A stretch of DNA of 64,000 nucleotides, from NCBI RefSeq assembly GCF_040451425.1, contig NZ_CP144374.1, positions 1,466,501 to 1,530,500 of the forward strand. The letters are read 5' to 3'. Source of the DNA: Thermodesulfovibrio sp. 3462-1 (GTDB lineage: Bacteria; Nitrospirota; Thermodesulfovibrionia; Thermodesulfovibrionales; Thermodesulfovibrionaceae). Below, piece after piece: positions 12,367 to 50,091 of this stretch (positions are counted from its first letter, which is position 1; each line of letters begins with the position of its first letter). A program made the translations under genes and the position numbers. The notes beneath the pieces were generated by a model. The model ran no database searches and was not told the origin of the DNA. It saw only the letters and a program-made list of their open reading frames with translations.

Positions 12367-13222
12367 AGTTGTAAAGGGATTAATAAAGGATGAGCATGTT
12401 TTAGTTGTAGCAACGATCTGCACAGAAACAGTTGAGTATGCAAGAAAAATTCATGATACCTGGCCCACAGCAACTGCAGCTATGGGAAGGGTTATTGCGG
12501 GAAGTCTTCTTTTAGCATCAACACTTAAGGACAGACAAAAGGTAATGATTCAGATAAAGGGTGACGGACCGCTTAAAGAGGTTGTTGCTGAGGCAGACTT
12601 TCTTTACAGAGTTCGTGCCTATGTTAAAAGACCTCATATTTATATGGGATTGAAAAATGAAAAAATTGATGTGGGAAGAGCAATAGGTAAAGGTTTTTTA
12701 AATGTAATAAGAGACCTCGGGTTAAGAGAATACTACCAAAGCAGTGTGGCACTTCAAACAGGTGAGATTGCAAGAGACCTTGCCTATTATTTGAATGTTT
12801 CTGAACAGATTCCTTCAGCAGTCTCTCTTGGAGTTTATGTAGAACCAGACAATTCAGTTAAGGCTGCAGGTGGATTTATGATTCAGACAATGCCTGAAAC
12901 AAAAGTTGAGATAATTGATTTTCTTGAAAGAAAGCTTTCTCAAACTCCATCAGTTTCATCAATGATACTGCAGGGAATGGATTGTCTAAAAATTCTTGAA
13001 GAAGCCGTAGGACTTCCCATTGAGGTTATTCATAGAGGCACTGTGGCATACTTCTGTCCATGTACAAAAGATAGAGTTATCAGTGCAATTGTTACTCTTG
13101 GAAGAGAAGAAATTCAAAAAATGATTGATGAAGGTGAAACAGTTGAGGTTGAATGCTATTTCTGTAAGAAAAAATATAAGGTAACAGTAGAGGAATTACA
13201 GAGTCTTCTCAGGGAGATTTAA
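12359..13222 (+). CDS. hslO: Hsp33 redox-regulated chaperone
   Basis: This 287-residue cytoplasmic holdase is activated by oxidation. The zinc-binding redox switch is intact: CPC in AYFCPCTKDRV (about 231-241) and CYFC (about 262-265). The N-terminal core carries the conserved ATAAMGRVIAGSLL and KAAGGFMIQTMP segments. Its start overlaps the preceding gene by 8 bases, and its 3' end overlaps the convergent LigD-PE gene by 14. Confidence 0.95.
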   Translation: MDEVVKGLIKDEHVLVVATICTETVEYARKIHDTWPTATAAMGRVIAGSLLLASTLKDRQKVMIQIKGDGPLKEVVAEADFLYRVRAYVKRPHIYMGLKNEKIDVGRAIGKGFLNVIRDLGLREYYQSSVALQTGEIARDLAYYLNVSEQIPSAVSLGVYVEPDNSVKAAGGFMIQTMPETKVEIIDFLERKLSQTPSVSSMILQGMDCLKILEEAVGLPIEVIHRGTVAYFCPCTKDRVISAIVTLGREEIQKMIDEGETVEVECYFCKKKYKVTVEELQSLLREI

Positions 13223-43688: not shown

Positions 43689-45272
43689 TTATAAATAAAC
43701 AATTATCATAGTCATTGCACCTGTTATGGCACACATAAGTAAAACTGGAACTAAAACTGCTTTTATAAACTGTGCTTCTTCTCTACCGCCCACACCAATT
43801 GTAGCAGCAGCATTTGTAATCTTAGAAGGAGTTATTGCAGAGGCTATTCCACCACCAACTGCATGGGCTGCATAAATCCACATGAAAGCATTTGCTCCGA
43901 CTGTTGAAAGAGTTGCTTCCCATTGAATTTTTGCAAAAAGAACATTTGAGGCTGTTTCACTTCCTCCAACAAATGCACCAAATAAACCAAGAAAAGGTGC
44001 AATGAATGGATAAGCAGGACCAAAAACATTTGCAAGTGTTATTCCTATAATTCTGTCCATGTTGTACTGGGCAAAATATTGAGATGGGACAAGCTTTCCA
44101 TTTACAACTTCCATTGCAGACCATGCCATAATAAATGCCACAGCAAAGAAAAGTGAGTAAGCAAGAAAAGGTCCCCATATTCTTGTTATCCAGAGCTTGA
44201 AAACATTCCTTAATTGTTTACCTGATGGTTTAAGTATAAATATTGAAATAAAAGAAACAACCATTATCCAGAACCAGACATTCCCAAGAATGTTCAAATC
44301 TTCTTTTTTATCAGCAATAATTCTAATTACTTCAGTCTGACCCAGAACATTTTCAAGTTTCATTTTAATAGTGGGGATATTTACAATGAGTGAGATTATT
44401 ATTAACAGGATAAATGGTAGGCAGGCTATAAAAACTTCTTTATTAAAAATAGATTTACTTTGCTCCTGAGTGTTATTCCTGCGATAAATAAAATAAACTG
44501 TGAGCATGGTAATCAATCCAGAGATAATTCCTATAATTTCTACTGGAAGAATTCTGAAACCGGCAATTACAAGGGCAGAAACTGAAAGCATAAGACCTGA
44601 AATCATTGCAGCTTTCCAATTTTTCTTTATAGCTTCTTTACCTCCAACAACTTTGAGCATCAAAAAAGCAAAAATCACTGAGATTACAGGCAATAAAACA
44701 GTTACTTTGAAAGTATAATCCCAGATAAAATCATTAAGGCTTTCTATGTTAGGAGGCTTTATTCCAAAAGCCATTGCAACTTTTGAAGGCAGTGTTAGAG
44801 GAATTGTAAATAGAGCAAAGGAAGTAAGAGGGTCATAGCAAAGAATGCTTATGCCAATTGCAGCAATAGGAGAAAATCCTAATAACAAAAAAATCGGTGG
44901 AAACATTGCAGGAGTTACCATACCAAGTGATGTGCTTAAAGAGCCAAATCCCATTCCGATGAAAAGGGTTTGTTCTTCTTTGTTTCGAGCAATTCCTTTT
45001 ACATAATCAATAATTTTCTTTAATGCACCGGTTTCTCTCATTAAAAATATTAAAAACATTGTAAAAACAACTGCCAGTGAGATCCCAAATGCTTTAACAA
45101 TTCCAGTAAGTGTAGCACCCCATACAACATTCCATGGAGTTTTAAAGTAGTAAACCGCTACAAACATAGCAAGGATCCATCCTACTACAGAAACAAAACT
45201 CCCTGAACGATAAAAAACAAGCATACCTATTAAAACCACAAGAATTGGGAAAAGGGCTAAAAAGAAATCCAT
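43689..45272 (-). CDS. lctP: L-lactate permease (LctP family)
   Basis: This 527-residue polytopic transporter has about 13 membrane helices. The family blocks PLTSFALFTIPLTLPSKVAMAFG (in part), MAWSAMEVVNGKLVPSQ, GLFGAFVGGSETASNVLFAKIQ (in part) and the terminal AAATIGVGGREEAQFIK are clear. It imports lactate with protons, fitting a lactate-oxidising sulfate reducer. It has an AAAGGAGG ribosome-binding site. The divergent neighbour encodes an NrpR-type regulator. Confidence 0.93.
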   Translation of the reverse strand: MDFFLALFPILVVLIGMLVFYRSGSFVSVVGWILAMFVAVYYFKTPWNVVWGATLTGIVKAFGISLAVVFTMFLIFLMRETGALKKIIDYVKGIARNKEEQTLFIGMGFGSLSTSLGMVTPAMFPPIFLLLGFSPIAAIGISILCYDPLTSFALFTIPLTLPSKVAMAFGIKPPNIESLNDFIWDYTFKVTVLLPVISVIFAFLMLKVVGGKEAIKKNWKAAMISGLMLSVSALVIAGFRILPVEIIGIISGLITMLTVYFIYRRNNTQEQSKSIFNKEVFIACLPFILLIIISLIVNIPTIKMKLENVLGQTEVIRIIADKKEDLNILGNVWFWIMVVSFISIFILKPSGKQLRNVFKLWITRIWGPFLAYSLFFAVAFIMAWSAMEVVNGKLVPSQYFAQYNMDRIIGITLANVFGPAYPFIAPFLGLFGAFVGGSETASNVLFAKIQWEATLSTVGANAFMWIYAAHAVGGGIASAITPSKITNAAATIGVGGREEAQFIKAVLVPVLLMCAITGAMTMIIVYL

Positions 45273-45332: not shown

Positions 45333-45358
45333 ATTATAAAAATCAACCATGTTATAAT
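45333..45358. promoter_or_regulatory. Inverted repeat in the lctP-nrpR divergent region
   Basis: ATTATAA (45333-45339) and TTATAAT (45352-45358) are perfect reverse complements separated by 12 bases. The right arm contains the likely nrpR -10 box (TATAAT, 45353-45358). It is a candidate operator for autoregulation, although AT-rich repeats arise easily by chance. Confidence 0.35.
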
Positions 45359-45384
45359 TTTAAATAAACAAATCTGGAGGATTT

Positions 45385-46362
45385 ATGAATCGAACACTTA
45401 TTGCTATCTTAAAAATTCTTGCAAAGGAAAACAAAATAATAGGTTCAAAAGAAATTGCAAAAAGGCTTAAGATGTATGGAATAAATCTATCAGAAAGAAC
45501 AGTAAGATATCATCTGAAAATTCTTGATGAAAGAGGCTTAACAAAAATTTTTGGTAAAGAAGGCAGAATTATTACTGAAAAAGGAAGACAAGAGCTTGAC
45601 ACTGCAATTACAGTTGAAAAAGTTGGATTTATAATAAATAAGATTGAAACTTTGAGTTATCTTTCTGATTTTGATATAAATTCCTGTAAAGGCAAAATTA
45701 TTGTCAATCTAAGTTACATTCCAAAGAACAAACTAAAAAAAGCTCTTAAATCAATGGAAAATGTTTTTAATTCATCCCTTGTAATGAGTAACAGGATTGT
45801 TTTTATTGAAAAAGATGATGAAGCTGTTTTGCCTGACGAACATGTTTGTATAGGAACAGTATGCAGTGTTACTCTTAATGCTATTTTATTAAAACATGGA
45901 ATACCTGTTATTTCAAAATTTGGCGGAGTCCTTGAAATAAAAGATGGATTGCCTTATAAATTTAGTGCTCTTATAAGATATGATGGAACATCTCTTGATC
46001 CGCTGGAAATATTTATAAGAGGTAAGATGACCAATGTTTCAGGTGCCATAAAAAACGGTTATGGAAGAGTTCTTGCAAGTTTTAGAGAAATTCCAGCAGT
46101 ATGTCTTAACAAAGTAAAAGAGATTTATTCAACCATGCAGGAAAAAGGCTTTCAGGGAATTCTTGTGTTTGGTGAGCCAAATCAAACTCTGCTTGACATT
46201 CCTGTTGGAATAGACCGTGTTGGCATTATAGTGGTAGGAGGATTAAATCCCATTGCAGCAGTTGAAGAAACTGGTATTCAAACATACACTTCAGCTATTT
46301 CAACTCTTTATGATTATCAAGCAATGATTGATTTCAAAGAACTTAGCAACGAACTTAAATAA
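45385..46362 (+). CDS. NrpR-type (DUF128) winged-helix transcriptional regulator
   Basis: This 325-residue protein has an N-terminal winged-helix domain (LAKENKIIGSKEIAKRL to about residue 75) and one NrpR/DUF128 regulatory domain (about 80-320) with GKIIVNLSYIPK, PDEHVCIGTVCSVTLNAILLK (in part), GIPVISKFGGVLEIK and PVGIDRVGIIVVGGLNPIAAVEE (in part). In methanogens NrpR represses nitrogen genes and is released by 2-oxoglutarate. Here the target is unknown; the divergent lactate permease is the nearest candidate. A CTGGAGG site precedes the ATG. Confidence 0.88.
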   Translation: MNRTLIAILKILAKENKIIGSKEIAKRLKMYGINLSERTVRYHLKILDERGLTKIFGKEGRIITEKGRQELDTAITVEKVGFIINKIETLSYLSDFDINSCKGKIIVNLSYIPKNKLKKALKSMENVFNSSLVMSNRIVFIEKDDEAVLPDEHVCIGTVCSVTLNAILLKHGIPVISKFGGVLEIKDGLPYKFSALIRYDGTSLDPLEIFIRGKMTNVSGAIKNGYGRVLASFREIPAVCLNKVKEIYSTMQEKGFQGILVFGEPNQTLLDIPVGIDRVGIIVVGGLNPIAAVEETGIQTYTSAISTLYDYQAMIDFKELSNELK

Positions 46363-48974
46363 TGCAGATAATAACAACTCACCTTAATGCTGATTTTGAT
46401 GCCCTTGCCTGTTGCATGGCAGCAAAGAAGCTCTATCCAGAGGCAGATATTGTATTGCCAGGGTCGATGGAAAAGAGGGTTAAGCTTTTTTTTGAAACTT
46501 TTAAACCATTTGAAATAAAAAAATTAAAAGAAATAGATTTAGACAAGGTTAAAACCTTAATAGTTGTTGATACAAGAAGTGTTCATAGGATAGGAGAGCT
46601 TGCTCAACTATTAAAAAAGCCAGTAAAGGTGCATCTTTATGATCATCATCCGAAGACAGAGGATGACATAAAGGCAGATTTTGAGATAACAGAGCAGGTT
46701 GGTGCCCTTGCATCACTTTTTACAGAGATCTTTCGTAAAAAAAATATTCCTATTACTCCTCTTGAAGCAACTCTTCTTTGTCTTGGAATTTATGAAGAAA
46801 CAGGATGCCTTGTCTTTCCATCAACAACTGAAAGAGATGTTTTAGCAGTAGCATATTTGCTAAAAAGAGGTGCAAATTTAAATATAGTGTCTCAATTTCT
46901 CAAAGAAGAACTTTCACGTGAAGAAGTATCTCTTCTTAATGAACTTTTAAATTCACTGCAGGAATACTTAATCAATGGAATAAGAGTTAACATTGCCCAT
47001 GCAGTAAAAGAAGAGCCTCAGGATGTTTCTCACATTGCTCACAAAGTAATGGATCTTATTGACACAGATGCTCTTTTTCTTATTATTGAGATGGAAGATA
47101 AAATTTTGATAATCGGAAGAAGTAACACTCCACAGGTTGATGTGGGTTCAATTTTAAGTGAATTTGGAGGAGGAGGGCACTGGGCAGCAGGCAGTGCTAC
47201 TTTAAAAGAAAGACCTGTTAATTTATTAATTGATGAACTCATAAAAATTATTAAGCAACAGGTAAAGCCTGAGAAAATCGCAAAAGATTTAATGACAACT
47301 CCAGTAATCTCTGTTCAATGGGACAGAACAATTAAGGAAGTTGAAGATATGATGACAAAGTATGGCATAAATGCCATGCCAGTAATTAAAAACAATAAAT
47401 ACATTGGTGTAATTACAAGAGGCGTTGTTGAAAAAGCAATTTTTCACGGTCTGAAAAAATCAAGAGTTGGAGATTTTGCCACAACAGATGCTTACACTGC
47501 AGAACAAGACACTCCTTTATGGGAAATAGAAAAGAACATGATTGAACTTAATCAAAGATTTGTTCCAATTCTCAAAGATGATAAAGTTGTTGGAGTTATT
47601 ACAAGAACTGACATATTGCGTAATTTATATGAGGAGCTGATAAGAAAGTTCAAGATTTCAAAACCTAAGGAAGAAATTGAAGAATCTAAAAAAAATGTAG
47701 CAAACTTGATGAAAGAGTTTCTTCCTGAAGAAATTTATAAAATTCTCCTCACTGCAGGAAGTCTTGCAGAAGAAATGGGATACGGAGTTTATTTAGTAGG
47801 CGGTTCAATAAGAGACCTCCTTATGAGAAAACCAAGTCCTGACATAGATATTGTAGTTGAAGGAGATGGAATAGCTTTTGCTCAAGAACTTTCAAAAATA
47901 ATAAACGGCAAAGTAATTCCTCATCGAAGGTTTGGCACTGCCAAGATTTTAATAGAAATTGAAAAAAATGGCGAAGTTAAAAGATTCTCCATAGATATTG
48001 CTACTGCCAGAACAGAATATTATGAGTCTCCTGCAGCTTTACCAAAGGTAGAGACTTCATCTATAAAAAAAGATCTATACAGAAGAGATTTTACGATAAA
48101 TGCTCTGGCTGTTAAACTTAATACAAAAGATTTTGGTTTGCTTTTAGATTTTTTTGGTGGACAAAGAGATATAAAAGATAAAAAAATCAGAGTGCTTCAT
48201 AATTTAAGCTTTGTAGAAGACCCTACAAGAGCCATAAGAGCCATAAGATTTTCAGAAAAGTTGGGATTTAAAATATCTAAACATACTGAAAATTTGATAA
48301 AACTTGCAGTTAAAATGAGCATTTTTGAGAAACTTAAAGGACCAAGACTTTATGAAGAGCTGATTTTACTTTTAAAAGAAACTTTACCTCATTATTCAGT
48401 AAAAAGACTTGCAGATTATGGCTTGCTCAAAATTCTTCATCCCTCTTTTGATGAAAAGCTTTTTAATGAGCTTGTTAAAGCTCATGAAACTGTTCAAGGC
48501 ATGGAACTACTTTTTTTGAAAGAAAAATATAGGAAAGAATTCATTTACTTAGTGGTGCTTTTGTGGAATCTTAAGTCGCACGAAAGGGAAGAATTTCTTA
48601 AAAGAATATGCGCTCCAGAGAATGTAAAAAAACAACTTATTGAAAACATTACTTCAGCTGAGAAAGCCTTACAGAATTTTCCTTCTGAGGAATCCTTTTT
48701 AGAAGTATATAAGCTTTTAAGCTCTTTAAATATAGAAACAATAATTTTGATGATGATTTATGCAGAGGAGCAACAAAAAAGGGCAATTTCAATTTATCTT
48801 ACAAAATTAAAAGAAATAAAACCTCTTTTGCGGGGAGAAGATTTAAAAAAACTTGGAATTCAGCCAGGTCCTGTATACAAAAAAATTTTTGATGAAATTT
48901 TAAAGGAAAAACTTCAGGGCAGACTTCTTTCAAAAGAAGAAGAGATAGAATTTGTAAAAAAGTTTGGAAAATAA
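46362..48974 (+). CDS. DHH phosphoesterase-CBS pair-tRNA nucleotidyltransferase/poly(A) polymerase fusion
   Basis: This 870-residue protein contains three modules. An N-terminal DHH/DHHA1 phosphoesterase (about 1-300) has HLNADFDALAC, VDTRS, YDHHPK and GGGGHWAAGSA. A CBS pair (about 305-425) begins KDLMTTPVISV. A class II nucleotidyltransferase (about 455-870) has VGGSIRDLLMRKPSPDIDIV, RRDFTINALAV and the RNA-binding PTRAIRAIRFSEKLGF. Fusions of this kind serve as CCA- or A-adding enzymes in some bacteria. It shares one base with the nrpR stop (TAATG). Confidence 0.92.
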   Translation: MQIITTHLNADFDALACCMAAKKLYPEADIVLPGSMEKRVKLFFETFKPFEIKKLKEIDLDKVKTLIVVDTRSVHRIGELAQLLKKPVKVHLYDHHPKTEDDIKADFEITEQVGALASLFTEIFRKKNIPITPLEATLLCLGIYEETGCLVFPSTTERDVLAVAYLLKRGANLNIVSQFLKEELSREEVSLLNELLNSLQEYLINGIRVNIAHAVKEEPQDVSHIAHKVMDLIDTDALFLIIEMEDKILIIGRSNTPQVDVGSILSEFGGGGHWAAGSATLKERPVNLLIDELIKIIKQQVKPEKIAKDLMTTPVISVQWDRTIKEVEDMMTKYGINAMPVIKNNKYIGVITRGVVEKAIFHGLKKSRVGDFATTDAYTAEQDTPLWEIEKNMIELNQRFVPILKDDKVVGVITRTDILRNLYEELIRKFKISKPKEEIEESKKNVANLMKEFLPEEIYKILLTAGSLAEEMGYGVYLVGGSIRDLLMRKPSPDIDIVVEGDGIAFAQELSKIINGKVIPHRRFGTAKILIEIEKNGEVKRFSIDIATARTEYYESPAALPKVETSSIKKDLYRRDFTINALAVKLNTKDFGLLLDFFGGQRDIKDKKIRVLHNLSFVEDPTRAIRAIRFSEKLGFKISKHTENLIKLAVKMSIFEKLKGPRLYEELILLLKETLPHYSVKRLADYGLLKILHPSFDEKLFNELVKAHETVQGMELLFLKEKYRKEFIYLVVLLWNLKSHEREEFLKRICAPENVKKQLIENITSAEKALQNFPSEESFLEVYKLLSSLNIETIILMMIYAEEQQKRAISIYLTKLKEIKPLLRGEDLKKLGIQPGPVYKKIFDEILKEKLQGRLLSKEEEIEFVKKFGK

Positions 48975-48999: not shown

Positions 49000-50091
49000 A
49001 TGACAACAACTAATCTTGAAGAGATCAAAAAAATTATTAAAAATGAACTGCCAACAATTTTAAAAACAGATCCTTCTTTTCGCAGATATATTCTTCAAAT
49101 AACAAAAGCTTACTATCCTCCAAAGAAAAAAACAGAGGACAGAATTGAGCAGCTCTATCAACAACTTTTGCAGATGCAAGAAAAATCTGACAGAAAATGG
49201 GAGGAATGGAGCAAACGCTGGCAGCAAACACAGGCAGAATGGAACAGAAAATGGGAAGAGAATGAGAAGCGCTGGGAGCAAACACAGGCAGAGTGGAACA
49301 GAAAATGGGAGGAATGGAGCAAACGCTGGGAGCAAACACAGGCAGAGTGGAACAGAAAATGGGAAGAGAATGAGAAGCGCTGGGAGCAAACACAGGCAGA
49401 ATGGAACAGAAAATGGGAGGAATGGAGCAAACGCTGGGAGCAAACACAGGCAGAATGGAACAGAAAATGGGAGGAATGGAGCAAACGCTGGGAGCAAACA
49501 CAGGCAGAGTGGAACAGAAAATGGGAAGAAAATGAGAAGCGCTGGGAGCAAACACAGGCAGAATGGAACAGAAAATGGGAGGAAAATGAGAAGCGCTGGG
49601 AGGAAAATCAAAGAACAATCAATGAAATTCTTAAACGGCTTGAAAAGATTGACAAAAGACATCTTTACACAATTGGTGCACTTGGTGCAAGATGGGGGCT
49701 TTATTCAGAAGAGTCTTTTCGTAATGGACTTAAAGCAATAATTGAGGAGTCTTTCGGCGTTGAAGTAATAAGGTATGTTGATTATGATCATGAGGGAGAA
49801 GTTTTTGGCAGACCAGACCAGATTGAGATTGATTTAATAGTAAGAAATGCAGAACTCATTGCCTGTGAGATTAAGTCTTCAATGAGTAAATCTGATATGT
49901 ATACACTGTGGCGAAAAAAAGAATTCTATGAAAAGAAACATCAAAAAAAGGTTGACAGAGTTATTGTAATATCTCCAATGGTTGATCCTCGTGCTAAGCC
50001 AGTGGCGGAAAAGCTTGGGATAGAGATTTATACTCATTCAGATGAATTCATAGAAAAAGAAGAAAAAAATATAGAGGATATATCAAGTTAA
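49000..50091 (+). CDS. PD-(D/E)XK nuclease-like protein (DUF3782 type) with Trp-rich tandem repeats
   Basis: This 363-residue protein has a short N-terminal part (1-64), a Trp/Glu/Lys-rich helical repeat region (about 65-203) built from 18-residue units EWNRKWEENEKRWEQTQA or EWNRKWEEWSKRWEQTQA, and a C-terminal domain with the nuclease-fold triad EID278, then E290-I-K292 (ACEIKSS). The C-terminal domain is seen in thermophile and cyanobacterial proteins of unknown function. No ribosome-binding site is visible. The palindrome TATGATATCATA (48984-48995) lies just before the ATG and contains a possible -10. Confidence 0.8.
   Translation: MTTTNLEEIKKIIKNELPTILKTDPSFRRYILQITKAYYPPKKKTEDRIEQLYQQLLQMQEKSDRKWEEWSKRWQQTQAEWNRKWEENEKRWEQTQAEWNRKWEEWSKRWEQTQAEWNRKWEENEKRWEQTQAEWNRKWEEWSKRWEQTQAEWNRKWEEWSKRWEQTQAEWNRKWEENEKRWEQTQAEWNRKWEENEKRWEENQRTINEILKRLEKIDKRHLYTIGALGARWGLYSEESFRNGLKAIIEESFGVEVIRYVDYDHEGEVFGRPDQIEIDLIVRNAELIACEIKSSMSKSDMYTLWRKKEFYEKKHQKKVDRVIVISPMVDPRAKPVAEKLGIEIYTHSDEFIEKEEKNIEDISS
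49192..49608 (+). repeat. 54-bp tandem repeat (coding minisatellite)
   Basis: Nearly eight copies of a 54-base unit encode 18-residue Trp-rich helical repeats. Two unit types alternate, one with GAATGGAGC (EWS) and one with GAGAATGAG (ENE) in the middle, in the order EWS-ENE-EWS-ENE-EWS-EWS-ENE-ENE. Synonymous differences are few, so the array is young or homogenised. Because the unit is a multiple of 3 and lacks stops, other frames are open too. Confidence 0.95.

Follow-up and report, generated by a model that had tools for sequence, protein, structure and literature searches.

A candidate operator and regulon for the archaeal-type nitrogen repressor NrpR in the bacterial order Thermodesulfovibrionales

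The NrpR regulator encoded in the window (the whole stretch of 64,000 nucleotides analysed here, from Thermodesulfovibrio sp. 3462-1) probably represses nitrogen-assimilation genes through a 14-bp site of the GGTAACCGWTTRCC type and would be relieved by 2-oxoglutarate, the divergent lactate permease-family gene lctP being a bystander on present evidence. What is established about NrpR comes from methanogens, and no operator or regulon of a bacterial NrpR was seen in the literature searched; with a concrete site and a list of predicted targets in one bacterial order, the bacterial branch of this family becomes directly testable. The strain apparently lacks PII and would thus be a naturally occurring example of a bacterium that depends on NrpR to sense nitrogen.

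The nrpR gene (45385-46362, plus strand) is an intact open reading frame of 325 amino acids preceded by a likely ribosome-binding site, GGAGG (45376-45380, plus strand), recognized by eye. Its product starts with a winged-helix DNA-binding domain (PF08461, HTH_12; residues 6-71, 45400-45597), followed by one NRD/DUF128 domain (PF01995, NRD1_2; residues 80-314, 45622-46326, E 1.7e-88), both on the plus strand and above the gathering score. Sequence comparison of the NRD domain with MJ0159 (PDB 3nek) gave an E-value of 1.6e-29, and 3nek was also the best PDB match of the predicted structure (mean pLDDT 81.6; Foldseek E 1.5e-19, TM 0.88-0.89 by target length). The identification as NrpR and the single DUF128 domain, both proposed in the initial annotation, were thus borne out, and the product is genuinely related, as a bacterial member, to the nitrogen repressor of methanogens. 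The genome (G000: one contig, C1, of 1,818,996 bases, 99.98% complete) contained no second PF01995 gene over the 1.82 Mb searched, making nrpR the sole copy. Directly downstream, a gene of the tRNA nucleotidyltransferase type (DHH-CBS-poly(A) polymerase head; 46362-48974, plus strand) overlaps the nrpR stop codon by one base at its start, and further on (49000-50091, plus strand) lies a gene whose product, combining DUF3782 with PD-(D/E)XK, contains a long tract of nearly identical WEENEKRWEQTQAEWNRK-type repeats.

A bacterial NrpR is nothing unusual: its occurrence in "certain Bacteria" is already stated in PMC2723118, and it was found in 36 of the 61 genomes of the genus and order, among them two with fragments at contig ends only (G057 and G060) and one with a broken frame (G008). 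In 20 nrpR stretches from outside the genus (L041-L060), the gene was often situated downstream of genes for a KaiC/HTH/cupin protein and a GltS-like protein, or near glnA, PII, glnE or gltB, and no lctP relative was clustered with it. A scan of named genomes, restricted to the best 80 of 157, supplied 79 loci, 20 of them from the genomes already covered and 59 further. Among the 58 further loci with a recognized nrpR from these best 80 of 157, a nitrogen-type gene was present within four genes of nrpR in 44, and in 28 when only a narrow set (glnA, gltB, PII, glnE, amt, NifA-like, amidotransferase) was counted; proteins of 860 amino acids with 23-27% identity to the KaiC/HTH/cupin family were left out, and the count of 44 was unchanged. 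Five loci (L291, L293, L297, L298 and L307), titled Deltaproteobacteria or Syntrophorhabdaceae, carried a second NrpR, 41-43% identical to the first, near it and in the opposite direction.

In the strain's own genome, the candidate site was located just after the TTGACA promoters of glnA, gltB and the KaiC/HTH/cupin - GltS-like operon, as GGTAACCGTTAGCC (G000:C1:1718206), GGTAACCTTTTGCC (G000:C1:1749383) and GGTAACCGTTTACC (G000:C1:395018), respectively, which makes these the predicted targets. With at most one mismatch, GGTAACCGWTTRCC occurred in exactly these three places of the 1.82 Mb genome, against one match for the reversed-pattern control; at two mismatches the control was the higher (7 vs 19), and the additional places at 12590, 1599621 and 1629904 were dropped, being inside long open frames. 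The genome contains one glnA and four PF01645 matches, among which gltB ranks first in strength and the GltS-like gene second. The KaiC-like, HTH and cupin domains are combined in one gene (L075:6053-9018, minus strand, or G000:C1:392052-395017), the start of which the site precedes by 1 bp; together with the following GltS-like gene it forms an operon that is often found beside nrpR in relatives.

No nif, molybdate or Amt target of the candidate site was found in the own genome, where the best match in the amt region had five mismatches. Nitrogenase was rejected as a target: the four PF00142 matches passed the Pfam cut-off but reached only 26-38 bits (best E 1.1e-9), matches also arise in genomes such as E. 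coli, and the four are presumably ParA/MinD-type relatives, with nif absent. Autoregulation of nrpR was likewise rejected for the own genome, which has no site at nrpR; it would be plausible in G044 and L299, with a site 58 and 49 bp from nrpR, respectively.

Across the 61 genomes, the site followed NrpR. Perfect copies of GGTAACCGWTTRCC were found in 17 of the 36 genomes with NrpR and in none of the 25 without it (Fisher 2e-5, relatedness ignored), and total matches exceeded the reversed-pattern control in the former (79 vs 29), not in the latter (36 vs 40). The starts of nitrogen-type genes accounted for 53 of the 79 sites in NrpR-positive genomes (36 after subtraction of the KaiC/HTH/cupin and GltS-like genes) and for one of the 36 in NrpR-negative genomes (before a PII gene of G051), the remaining 26 of the 79 being situated elsewhere. 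Counted by genome, 26 of 36 with NrpR had a site at a nitrogen-type gene compared to 1 of 25 without (p 4.6e-8), and 20 of 36 compared to 1 of 25 when the KaiC/HTH/cupin and GltS-like genes were excluded (p 2.1e-5), relatedness being ignored in both tests. Of the 53 nitrogen-gene sites, 51 had a TTGAC element no more than 50 bp upstream, compared to 6 of 114 flanks of other sites; such a position, just downstream of a promoter, fits a repressor. The 59 further NrpR loci (from the best 80 of 157) gave 46 matches representing 45 places, one palindrome matching on both strands; 41 of these places were at nitrogen-type genes in 23 loci, and 21 places in 12 loci remained with the narrow gene set. 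Within the genus, glnA, gltB and the KaiC operon have retained their sites; relatives also showed a site at the NifA-like/amidotransferase operon, the adjoining gene in L091, L174 and L177 being NifA-like.

The sites are palindromes of 14 bp with a 4-6-4 layout at glnA, gltB and other genes, and their arms read GGYA-N6-TRCC (GGTA or GGCA paired with TACC or TGCC), although the evenness of the base tally is partly by construction, as the sites were picked at one mismatch or less. The operator of Methanococcus maripaludis NrpR is given as GGAAN6TTCC in PMC2723118; the arms found here are not identical to GGAA/TTCC, an identity that is not required of distant members. From this likeness of layout and from the tracking of NrpR across genomes, we infer that in this order the site serves as the operator of NrpR. 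No site at a nitrogen-type gene with one mismatch or less was found in 10 of the 36 NrpR-positive genomes, seven of which are 99-100% complete. In one genome (G030), GGCAACCTATTGCC directly follows the -10 element of glnA, which makes operator drift likely, though this is one instance. One congener, G013 (99% complete), possesses NrpR and has neither a PII match nor an operator match at one mismatch or less. In G051 (95% complete, no NrpR detected) a one-mismatch palindrome is located 42 bp before a PII gene (L206:2089, or G051:C10:17088), possibly as a relic, by chance, or because NrpR was missed.

The main alternative, which we consider rather unlikely, is that the KaiC/HTH/cupin protein, and not NrpR, owns the 14-bp site and that NrpR acts elsewhere. 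This protein possesses an HTH and is itself likely to bind DNA, it co-occurs with NrpR in 20 of the 21 genomes having a full-length copy, and the site upstream of its gene, present in all 20 genomes that also have NrpR, looks like autoregulation; however, G056 has the full-length protein with neither NrpR nor the site (best match four mismatches), while NrpR and nitrogen-gene sites, but no full-length KaiC/HTH/cupin protein, are present in G012, G021, G023, G044 and G053. The layout, moreover, is that of the archaeal NrpR operator. The discriminating genomes are few, and on sequence evidence NrpR appears to fit better than the KaiC/HTH/cupin protein as the owner of the site. In G022 and G034, the site upstream of the KaiC/HTH/cupin gene is common to a divergent amidotransferase gene.

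It is very unlikely that NrpR controls lactate uptake, whether mainly or as an additional function, through an AT-rich repeat between lctP and nrpR, as the initial annotation had suggested in linking this uptake to the nitrogen status. The divergent orientation that it described is correct: a gene of the lactate permease family occupies 43689-45272 on the minus strand (PF02652, E 2.8e-51), although its product scored 156 bits against TIGR00795, below the cut-off of 341 bits, and lactate is its probable substrate by homology only. This gene is directly divergent from nrpR in 10 of the 15 nrpR-bearing genomes of the genus; in G002 another open reading frame separates the two, and no lctP was seen near nrpR in G005, G009, G011 and G013, the upstream contig available being only about 1.0 kb in G011 and 0.75 kb in G013. 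In the NrpR loci examined outside the genus the linkage was never seen, with no LctP relative at E 1e-10 in the 59 further NrpR loci from the best 80 of 157. The repeat ATTATAA-N12-TTATAAT does exist (45333-45358, strand not assigned; arms 45333-45339 and 45352-45358), and its right arm is part of TGTTATAAT (45350-45358, plus strand), judged by eye to be the extended -10 element of nrpR, 26 bases before the ATG. As a signal it did not stand: with the 12-bp spacing it occurs once only in the whole genome, and with spacers of 10-14 bp it was found in 2 of the 14 upstream regions of the genus, i.e., the own one and one (L013) of 13 other congeners. The intergenic region of 112 bp is 81% A+T and contains two 7-bp inverted repeats, compared to a mean of 2.0 in composition-matched first-order Markov sequences of the same length (probability of at least one, 0.605). 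The repeat is thus no more frequent than expected by chance, and its conservation is poor; we judge it to be chance plus promoter. An intergenic block, AAAATCAACCCATGTTATAAT, shows fairly good conservation within the genus, but the TATAAT of the nrpR -10 is kept with or without lctP, and this element plus its flank persists where lctP is separated or missing. On the minus strand, TTGATT (45346-45341), noticed by eye and unlisted by the consensus scan, may be the -35 element of lctP. No candidate operator was found in the lctP-nrpR region, where the best match had seven mismatches. The lactate link is therefore rejected for now because the repeat is at chance level, the adjacency to lctP is incomplete and confined to the genus, and the sites that track NrpR are elsewhere, at glnA, gltB and comparable genes; this is close to the outcome that the initial annotation itself had named as refuting it, a chance repeat and a protein binding only nitrogen-gene operators. 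Present evidence suggests that the place of nrpR beside lctP is incidental. Least credible of all is a role of NrpR in the genus as a local regulator of the co-transcribed tRNA nucleotidyltransferase gene, outside the nitrogen regulon: this gene overlaps nrpR and follows it in all 15 nrpR-bearing genomes of the genus, but co-transcription does not make it a target and the genus members retain their sites at the nitrogen genes.

For NrpR as a nitrogen repressor, the sequence of events would be as follows. With nitrogen plentiful, an NrpR dimer would occupy the GGTAACCGWTTRCC-type site and block the start of transcription at the predicted targets, i.e., glnA, gltB and the KaiC/HTH/cupin - GltS-like operon in the own genome. 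With nitrogen short, the level of 2-oxoglutarate would rise and its binding to the NRD domain would release NrpR from the DNA, by analogy with what is published for methanogens.

The PII gene was present in 54 of 56 good-quality genomes, and none was found in the own genome or in G013. Eight congeners have the gene order amt - PII - NifA-like - amidotransferase (ten stretches were fetched, two of which were cut by contig ends). The own genome has instead a single frame of 880 amino acids (L073:7169-9808, about G000:C1:1793168-1795807, minus strand, outside the window), in which an ammonium transporter (4-383) is joined to GAF, sigma-54 and Fis domains (382-856); the part of amt that encodes the signal peptide is in another frame. 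Since the eight congeners have amt, PII and the NifA-like gene as individual genes, PII seems to have been lost by a deletion joining amt to the NifA-like gene; the junction is possibly an assembly error. Tentatively, we propose that the Thermodesulfovibrionales may run GS/GOGAT with an archaeal-type, direct 2-oxoglutarate-sensing repressor that has its own operator code, together with an undescribed KaiC-HTH-cupin/GltS-like operon, and that in the PII-less strain with the amt-NifA-like fusion NrpR may be the only recognized 2-oxoglutarate sensor left.

Compared to the NrpR of methanogens (Methanococcus maripaludis and others), the protein has in common the winged helix plus NRD organization and, as predicted here, nitrogen-assimilation targets that include glnA. 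Some archaeal NrpRs possess two NRD domains, while the bacterial protein has one. The candidate site shares the 14-bp, 4-6-4 layout of the methanogen operator (GGAAN6TTCC in PMC2723118), but has GGYA/TRCC arms in place of GGAA/TTCC and is situated just after a bacterial -35/-10 promoter; the own genome also differs in its target set, from which nif, molybdate and Amt genes are missing as far as found. The nitrogen repressor-like protein MJ0159 (PDB 3nek) has the NRD fold in common with NrpR, the matched part of 3nek being the NRD only, whereas a winged helix precedes the NRD here. The common bacterial nitrogen circuits, NtrC/NifA plus PII, perform the same physiological job as that proposed for NrpR, and both PII and a NifA-like protein are present in the relatives; in contrast to these circuits, the own genome has no detectable PII, and NrpR acts as a repressor for which direct sensing of 2-oxoglutarate is expected.
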